A stretch of 64,000 nucleotides of DNA from Deltaproteobacteria bacterium (lineage in GTDB: Bacteria > Myxococcota > JADLHZ01), in NCBI GenBank assembly GCA_020848545.1, contig JADLHZ010000085.1:1-64000 (forward strand). The letters run 5' to 3'. Positions 26,925 through 54,434 of the stretch are shown piece by piece; the stretch's first letter is position 1; every line of letters starts with the position of its first letter. A model generated the notes under the pieces. The model worked only from the letters and a program-made list of their open reading frames with translations, had not been told where the DNA came from and searched no databases. The position numbers and the translations under genes were made by a program.

Positions 26925-30007
<3,083 letters not shown>

Positions 30008-30011
<4 letters not shown>

Positions 30012-31699
30012 TGGACGGTCCCGGCCACGTACCAGTGGCGCGCGCTGTGATCGAAGTAGACCCAGAGCACGTCACCGCGCTTCACCTCGGCGAAGTAATA
30101 GTCGCGCTGCACCTCGCTCTTCCACCAGCCGCCGGAGAAGATGTGCGGCCCGGTCAGCTTCGTCACCGCGCCGAGCTCGACGCCGGCGATGAGCCAGCCG
30201 TCGGTCGGATGCCGCTCGCGCCCCGGCAGCTGCATCGGCTGCGGGAAAAAGCGGCGAATGGTCCCTGGGACCTTTTTTGATCGATCTTCGATCGATGTCG
30301 GCGAGCGTGCACCTTCAAAAAAGGTCCCAGGGACCCGCGGCGCCGGCGTCGTCACCCGCTGCATCGGCTGCCAGCTAAAGCGCGCCTCCGGCAGGTGCCC
30401 ATCGCGCAAGACGGCCGCCATCACCGCGTTCGGCCCGAGCTCTGCGCGCAGCCGCGCAAACGCCCGCTCCGCCGCCGCGAGGTCGCGCTTCGGCGTCTCG
30501 GCGAAGAGCGCGAGCTGCGCCTGCGTCGCCGGCGCCGCGATGGCCCGCAACGCCAACGACTTCACGGCGCCCACGCTCTGCCCTTCACGCGGCGAGAACA
30601 GCGCCGAGAGCTTCAAGCGCACGAGCTCGAGCAAGATTGGGGCGTCGAGCGTGGGCTCGTGCCCGGCGACGGACTCGCGCACGACGTGGCCCTTCTGTTC
30701 GTTCGCGCGCCGCTCCAGCTGCAAGTGGAGCTCGAGCCGCACGAGCGCCTGTGATCGCTCGGCGAGCGTCGCCAGCAAGGGATGCAGCGCGCGCTTGACC
30801 AAGAAGAGCAAGCGCTCGCTGTCCTGCTCGGCTTCGTCGAGCGTCACTGTCTCGACGAGCGGCAGCTCCTCCTGCGTGTTCGCGAGCGGCGTCGTGCGTG
30901 TGCCTTTGGCGAACTGGACGAGCTCCAGCACCGCTGCGCCAAAGTGCTTCTTCAGCCCGGTCTCTGGGAGCGCCATCAACGCACCGACGTGATGCACGCC
31001 GAGCTTCGCCAGCATGTCGCGCGCGGCCGGCGCGAGCGGCAAGCGATCGAGGCGCACTTTCTCGGCGGCGTCGCGCTCCTCGGCCTCGCTCGCGAGCACG
31101 ATCGGATCCTTGTGCACCGCCGCGCGCGCGATGGCGTAGGAATGAAAGCGATCGAAGCCGACGACGATCGACGCGTAGAGGCCGAGCCCGCGCAGCTCGG
31201 CGTGCATCGCCCGCGCCCAGTATTCGAGCGAAGGATAAATGCGCCAGAGGCCCGAAGCGTCGATGAAGAACGAGCCGAGATCGAGCGCAGCCATCGCGCT
31301 GGAAGAAACGACATTATAGCGCGATTGGCTGCGCTCATTCAGCGCGACTCCGCAAGCTCCGTCGCGGTCCGGCGCGCGCGCGTCGAGCGTCACGTTGCCG
31401 GCGTCGATGTGCGGCGAGTAGTGGCGCAGCTTGCGGACGATGCGCTTGCGCCAATCGGCGATCATGTGCGGCGACACCGTGCCGGCACGCACCGATCCGT
31501 CGAGCGAGAGCGCCTGCGAGTAGCGCATGCCGGAGAGGATCTGCTGTGCGCGCGCGCGTTCGTTCGCCCACAGCACCGTGCCCTGTGGCTTGTCCTCGTC
31601 GACGACGACGATCGGCAGGCCGCGCCACTCGGGCCGGGTGACGAGCAGGAGCTGCAAAGGCAACGCGTGCAGCTCGACGCAGGCGATGCGGCGGATCAT
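30008..31699 (-). CDS. imuB: ImuB, catalytically dead Y-family polymerase-like protein
   Basis: This 563-residue protein starts MIRRIACVELHALPLQLLLV. The Y-family active-site acidic residues are lost (E at the usual first Asp; no SxDE in SSAMAALDLGSFFIDASGL), as expected for ImuB. A beta-clamp-binding motif QLALF lies at 395-399. The C-terminus has the ImuB-typical SEVQRDYYFAEVKRGDVLWV. Residues about 455-480 are encoded by a 76-bp inverted-repeat element (30260-30335) inserted in frame, giving RVPGTFFEG...KKVPGT. ImuB bridges the clamp, ImuA and DnaE2. Start and stop overlap imuA and dnaE2. Confidence 0.92.
30260..30335. repeat. In-frame GGTCCC inverted-repeat element inside imuB
   Basis: GGTCCCTGGGACCTTTTTT at 30260-30278 and its exact reverse complement at 30317-30335 form a perfect 19-bp inverted repeat. 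The interior contains the hairpin ATCGATC-TTC-GATCGAT near 30280-30296. Each arm is itself palindromic in GGTCCC/GGGACC. Eighteen bases of the arm recur at 54417-54434. Confidence 0.85.
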
Positions 31700-32367
31700 T
31701 TGACGCCCGCCACCGCAGCGAAGCTCCACTCGGCGACGCTGCCCGGGCCGCTGTGCTTGTCCTTCACCACCTCGCAGACGATCTCGGCGCCGCTCACCGC
31801 GAGCTTCTTGCGCGCGCAGTGCAGGCGTAACGACACGAGCGAGCCGAGCGACGGCGCCTCGCGCTTCTTCTCGCTCAGGCAGACGACGGCGGTGTGGTGC
31901 TTCTGCGCGAGGCCGAGCAAGCGGCTGAGCATCGCCGCCTGCAGCTCCGGCTCGCGTTGCCTCAGCCCGCAGAGCGAGAGGCCGGTGTCGATGACGACGA
32001 GCCCGAACGCTCCCGAGCGCAAGACGTGCTCGGCAGAGCGCAGCGCGCTCGCGATCGTGGGCATGACGATGAACGGCAGCGCGGAGAGATCGATGCCGAG
32101 CGCGGCGACGTCCGGAATGAACGGCACGCTCGGCCCGAGCTGCACCCACGCGGCGAGCTCTCCTGCGACCTGCGTCGCCTTCACCCACTGCATCGCCACG
32201 CTCAAGCACGCGTGACCGCCGGTGCCGGAGACTTCGACGAGACGACCGCTGAGCGCCGCGACCGACTCGAGCGACAACGCCGCGCCTTGCGGAGCCCGAC
32301 GCGAGAGCGCGGCCGCGCCGATGAACGAGAGCTGTGATTGGCGAAGGTGGCGGAGAGCGTCTTCCAT
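31696..32367 (-). CDS. imuA: ImuA, RecA-like mutasome protein
   Basis: This 223-residue protein is first in the imuA-imuB-dnaE2 operon. The RecA-like fold is suggested by LVEVSGTGGHACLSVAMQWV, where a Walker A would sit but lacks the Lys-Ser/Thr, then the strands GAFGLVVIDTGLSL and HTAVVCLSEKKREA, and ends in EIVCEVVKDKHSGPG. ImuA is a RecA-related partner required for mutasome activity. Its stop overlaps the imuB start (ATGA). Upstream lies a promoter whose spacer is a LexA-like box. Sequence similarity among ImuA proteins is low, so the call leans on context. Confidence 0.85.
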   Translation of the reverse strand: MEDALRHLRQSQLSFIGAAALSRRAPQGAALSLESVAALSGRLVEVSGTGGHACLSVAMQWVKATQVAGELAAWVQLGPSVPFIPDVAALGIDLSALPFIVMPTIASALRSAEHVLRSGAFGLVVIDTGLSLCGLRQREPELQAAMLSRLLGLAQKHHTAVVCLSEKKREAPSLGSLVSLRLHCARKKLAVSGAEIVCEVVKDKHSGPGSVAEWSFAAVAGVK

Positions 32368-54283: not shown

Positions 54284-54434
54284 GACCTGGGACCATTTCA
54301 ACCGTCACAGCAACCAAGCCCGAAAACGATTCAGTATCGAGCCACGCACCCAACACCGCGCTCCACAGGCGCGAAATGGTCCCTGGTCCCAGTGTACAAA
54401 AGTTGGACAGAAAATAGGTCCCTGGGACCTTTTT
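54283..54434. repeat. Inverted-repeat-bounded element plus GGTCCCTGGGACC palindrome
   Basis: GGACCTGGGACCATTTC (54283-54299) is mirrored by GAAATGGTCCCTGGTCCC (54373-54390), bounding about 108 bp with no gene inside. A separate AGGTCCCTGGGACCTTTTT palindrome with T-tail follows at 54416-54434 and overlaps the methyltransferase stop. The repeats are shared in core with 30260-30335. No transposase is present. Confidence 0.8.

Follow-up and report, generated by a model that had tools for sequence, protein, structure and literature searches.

A REP-like inverted repeat pair lies in frame within imuB of a Myxococcota genome

The imuB gene of a deltaproteobacterium of the Myxococcota contains, within its open reading frame, an inverted pair of a short repeat that is dispersed over the genome and absent from ImuB homologues, and the linker that holds it carries repeats of unrelated kinds in other lineages. 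We regard it as highly probable that a REP-like inverted pair was inserted into imuB and is tolerated there as passive selfish DNA in a disordered linker. In-frame repeats in genes, including repair genes and dnaE2, have already been published; what appears to be new is an untagged REP-like family, the exact ImuB joint and the repeated use of that joint by unrelated repeats. The case would illustrate cleanly, in a group other than Rickettsia and Pseudomonadota, how repeat DNA becomes protein sequence. With different repeats in one linker, the mutasome could also serve as a natural test of mere tolerance in flexible joints against altered mutation frequency, a question raised in 2013 (PMC3733652).

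The inverted repeat in imuB

All positions refer to the window, the whole stretch of 64,000 nucleotides that was analysed. On its reverse strand, imuB (30011-31699, 563 residues) forms an operon with an imuA-like gene upstream (31699-32367, with an NCBIfam ImuA match below cut-off) and with dnaE2, encoding an error-prone DNA polymerase, directly downstream (26928-30011); neighbouring genes abut or share a few bases. The product has the Y-family core of ImuB (IMS domain, Pfam E = 4.7e-8, with a model that matches Y-family polymerases), followed by the clamp-binding-like motif QLALF at residues 395-399 (30503-30517, reverse strand), a RecA-NT-like region, a linker and ImuB-C. These features, in the domain order described in PMC11791113, and the position between imuA and dnaE2 identify the gene as imuB. 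The mapping of mycobacterial ImuB likewise places the linker between RecA-NT and ImuB-C (PMC11791113).

The inverted repeat consists of two arms of 21 nt (30260-30280 and 30315-30335) that are 100% complementary and enclose a spacer of 34 nt (30281-30314). Arm 1, on the forward strand, is composed of the core GGTCCCTGGGACC and a T6-run and reads as KKVPGT on the imuB strand, and arm 2, on the reverse strand, reads there as VPGTFF. Positions 30260-30337 correspond to codons 455-480 of imuB, and these encode RVPGTFFEGARSPTSIEDRSKKVPGT. The inverted repeat is not a chance pattern: allowing up to two mismatches, the core matches the window 8 times where 0.85 matches are expected, a count that none of the shuffled sequences reached. 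An earlier note on this DNA had placed a perfect 19-bp inverted repeat at 30260-30335, between the clamp-binding motif and the C-terminus. The repeat is present and perfect with arms of 21 nt rather than 19, and its site is indeed the linker, more precisely the segment joining RecA-NT to ImuB-C. An AlphaFold2 model built from 44 sequences has a mean pLDDT of 82, with values below 50 at residues 104-135, 457-481 and 522-526, and the repeat-encoded stretch is thus predicted to be disordered.

For comparison we assembled 85 ImuB sequences, most of them 37-46% identical to the query; among contigs, a search for relatives with the ImuB protein alone returned 0 and a search with a six-sequence alignment returned 80. 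Neither RVPGTFF nor KKVPGT occurs in any of the 85 homologues, in which the domains flanking the linker are conserved. The stretch from the P445 column to R482-R483 measures 17-19 residues in 66 of the 85 and 36 in the query. The net gain would therefore be about 18 residues, against 26 encoded by the element, which suggests that some eight codons of the linker have been replaced or are enclosed by the arms. The earlier proposal of ∼26 residues added in frame thus holds for the frame, which is intact together with ImuB-C, and overstates the gain. The same note had argued that non-coding repeat DNA had been turned into protein sequence, and this is borne out by the mostly extragenic nature of the repeat family and by the absence of residues 455-480 from the alignment that it had suggested, translation being presumed from the open reading frame. 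It had also reasoned that repeat-free relatives with the same residues would mark the stretch as ancestral, and the 85 aligned homologues include no such relative. These homologues, at ∼46% identity or less, are the basis on which we infer an insertion into imuB, and in the tree the query ImuB falls in no well-supported group.

A REP-like family across the genome

The genome search for the arm, also suggested in that note, recovered a genome-wide, mostly extragenic repeat. The 13-bp core is found in 78 exact copies at 57 places of the 7.99-Mb genome (0 for a reversed control); 57 other genomes of the phylum contain 0-2 copies apiece. About half of the 57 places hold at least two copies, and many copies share a longer form, GTGTCCAnnnnnTGGACAnnnaataGGTCCCTGGGACCttttt. 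Genes were called with a self-trained script in 446 kb of selected loci, and strong genes were counted. In this DNA, which is 91-94% coding, 35 of the 78 cores have a stop codon within 12 nt and 8 are located deep in strong genes; these junction counts are not a genome-wide background because the loci were selected for carrying copies. The family therefore has many dispersed copies of a short palindrome, mostly extragenic and near gene 3′ ends, as REPs do. In the aligned flanks, read by eye, we saw GTGTCCA..TGGACA..AATA or A-runs and no GTAG or CGTC tag of the two large REP super-families. Copy number, mostly intergenic sites and the stop codon that one copy supplies to a transposase gene make this a REP-like family, one that lacks the GTAG/CGTC tag.

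Within the window, an exact copy occupies an intergenic position beside a gene 3′ end (54417-54429, forward strand), with a longer GTGTACA..TGGACA hairpin in front of it. A degenerate partner of this copy, GGTCCCTGGTCCC, lies 39 nt off, between two genes (54378-54429 for the pair).

Four matches to Y1 transposases (PF01797) were found in the genome, the best of them at C18. The last codons and the TAG stop of this open reading frame (L023 1513-2202) lie inside a repeat copy, and its best NCBIfam match is the REP-associated tyrosine transposase (E = 3.6e-17), at 62.6 bits below the cut-off of 80. The gene probably encodes a divergent member of that group, its match being below the curated cut-off, and such a REP-associated tyrosine (HUH) transposase could plausibly have moved and spread the repeats. 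The C18 reading frame also adjoins a convergent gene.

Besides imuB, the best-supported in-frame copies are in four genes. A gene of the MBOAT family holds the pair KRSQGPFSSFLRFGEKGPWDLF; an ABC transporter gene has one copy (KRSLGPF) and a degenerate partner between its membrane and ATPase parts; and an NDH-2-like gene has the pair MVPGTFFHRAAPDASVAEERKKVPGT at its C-terminus, with the same inward arrangement and the same 63-nt spacing as in imuB. The fourth, a trpF-like gene (L034 1154-1765, contig C33), has a single copy, AAAEKVPGTFLLSD (KVPGTF), within the PRAI domain and not in an obvious linker. Two more in-frame calls, at C25 and C98, are doubtful; both lie close to where weakly scoring genes begin. 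Three reading frames are used among the genes (VPGTFF, KRSQGPF and KGPWDLF), and the core with its T/A-runs contains no stop codon in any of the six frames. Inverted pairs occur at about 15 of the 57 places, the starts of the two copies being 29 to 87 nt apart. A conserved spacer shared by the imuB and NDH-2 pairs was considered and rejected, as the two show no similarity; the family thus departs from a REPIN, a mobile inverted pair with a similar spacer.

The linker in other lineages and the origin of the insertion

Three unrelated kinds of repeat, that of the query included, are found in the linker between RecA-NT and ImuB-C. In seven homologues (L106, L107, L108, L110, L112, L122 and L123) the linker carries tandem TTGAACnnn units, read as N-x-L-N, and the genomes of these TTGAACG-type homologues hold 11 to 140 copies each of the pattern TTGAACGNNTTGAACG, against 0-1 for the control; the linker of L110 additionally contains the stretch CCTTCGACTGCGCTCAGGGCAGGCT. 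The linker of L113 carries an element with ends of 19 nt (CTAGTAGGCTGCTGAAAAA and TTTTTCAGCATCCTGCTAG, 89% complementary) and internal copies resembling GTTCGTCCTGAGCCCTTCGA, and its end sequence has 5 copies in the genome of L113 and 12 in that of L110. The seven TTGAACG genomes and L113 form a clade of 12 with L109, L114, L118 and L142, all of which have ordinary linkers, and within this clade the tree fits repeated gain and repeated loss alike. Across ImuB as a whole, 45 entries for insertions of 7 residues or more were recorded; 19 of them, contributed by 17 of 86 sequences, are in this linker, and a genome-repeat nature is established for some of these only. Judged from sequence, and by comparison within ImuB rather than against the linkers of other proteins, the linker is probably a site where repeat DNA settles recurrently, because unrelated repeats landed there in other bacteria. 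Two related ImuBs show a different kind of expansion, with linkers of 59 residues in which SRSAP-like repeats abound (L141 3782-3958 and L158 3827-4003).

In the explanation that we favour, an inverted pair of REP-like palindromes would have been inserted into imuB in this lineage. Such repeats would insert everywhere, most insertions into coding sequence would be lost, and those with an open frame in a disordered joint would survive. Two features would explain why the insertion in imuB was kept: the core with its T/A-run is free of stops in all six frames, and the site is a disordered linker, in which length may matter little; a protein with ∼18 extra net residues should still function as ImuB. 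Other, unrelated genome repeats would have hit the same permissive joint independently. Whether the pair arrived as a unit is less clear, and two separate short REP insertions around about eight ancestral linker codons, a variant compatible with the explanation above, are a tentative possibility to be taken seriously. The net gain of ∼54 nt is close to the length of two short elements, against 76 nt for the complete inverted repeat, and among other pairs the spacers are unrelated and differ in length. On the other hand, the arms match perfectly over 21 nt, the inward arrangement with its 63-nt spacing recurs in the NDH-2 gene, and alignment of the linker is unreliable at this divergence. That the stretch is ancestral ImuB sequence, palindromic by coincidence, can hardly be believed: the reading frame is continuous and in frame, as this would require, but the residues are missing from 85 homologues and the core has 78 genomic copies.

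A role in RNA is unlikely, though it has more in its favour. The palindrome reads on the sense strand of imuB and dnaE2 as a terminator-like stem-loop, GGGTCCCTGGGACCT, followed by T5 (30322-30336, reverse strand; U5-6 in the RNA). The start of dnaE2 is about 250 nt downstream of the element, and the 21-bp hairpin could act as an attenuator of that gene, at the level of transcription or of translation. The long hairpin is strong (-56.3 kcal/mol, z = -6.8), and many members of the family lie directly after stop codons, as terminators do. However, taken by itself the local hairpin is weak (-8 kcal/mol, z = -0.5), terminator-like sites number 4 in the scan against 1.8 expected, translating ribosomes would normally disrupt the hairpin and the repeats in the linkers of other lineages are mostly of a different shape. 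Selection of the insertion for a changed ImuB function, for example in binding ImuA or DnaE2 or in mutation rate, is very improbable. Several kinds of repeat are inserted in the same ImuB linker, and the 2013 survey raises the possibility that REPs located in repair genes promote mutators (PMC3733652), but the stretch is predicted to be disordered, the flanking domains are conserved, most homologues do without the insertion and tolerance predicts the recurrence equally well. According to one proposal, ImuB is a Y-family polymerase fused with a once separate ImuB-C (PMC6511836); we give little more credence to the broader idea that the linker, possibly an ancient fusion seam, captures unrelated selfish repeats across lineages and thereby tunes mutasome assembly and the damage-induced mutation rate.

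Passive tolerance of selfish DNA, the reading that we prefer, has parallels in known systems. In Rickettsia, palindromic elements (RPE) occur in frame in protein-coding genes (Ogata et al. 2000, as summarized in PMC10969869). As in that case, a palindromic genome repeat sits in frame in a gene, adds tens of residues and is apparently tolerated. Unlike the RPE, with about 150 bp and a conserved encoded peptide, the repeat described here has a 13-bp core and a 76-bp pair, belongs to a member of the Myxococcota and is in frame in a handful of genes, among which the frames vary. The 2013 survey describes intragenic REPs, many of them dimers coding for 20-30 residues; the genes concerned often act in replication and repair and include dnaE2, uvr and recBCD. 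It suggests a mutator effect and cautions that REPs may occupy flexible linkers (PMC3733652). Residue-coding dimers, an intergenic bias after stops, repeat-supplied stop codons and a repair-gene bias are shared with the present case. By contrast, the families of that survey carry GTAG or CGTC tags, which we did not see in the imuB family, and the survey gives a shared insertion site among repair genes only for recB, in two Xanthomonas species; its main text makes no mention of ImuB. With REPINs and RAYTs (PMC3116915, PMC8266576) our family shares the frequent arrangement of palindromes as inverted pairs and the presence of a Y1 transposase gene next to a copy, and differs from them in that spacers are not conserved among pairs and the transposase match is below the curated cut-off. 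Our literature search found nothing on RAYT and REP sequences in Myxococcota.

A second stretch peculiar to this ImuB

A further 36 residues of the query ImuB (residues 101-136, 31292-31399) are also extra, with none or few in the homologues, and are predicted by AlphaFold2 to be disordered at 104-135. The stretch contains GACGGAGCTTGCGGAGTCGC, with TATAAT ∼26 nt after it. The same 20-mer is found at C89:51730, C140:10302 and C153:28248 (one mismatch), each time with a stop codon a few bases before it and another gene downstream. The stretch in imuB may be a further small repeat or a promoter-like site.
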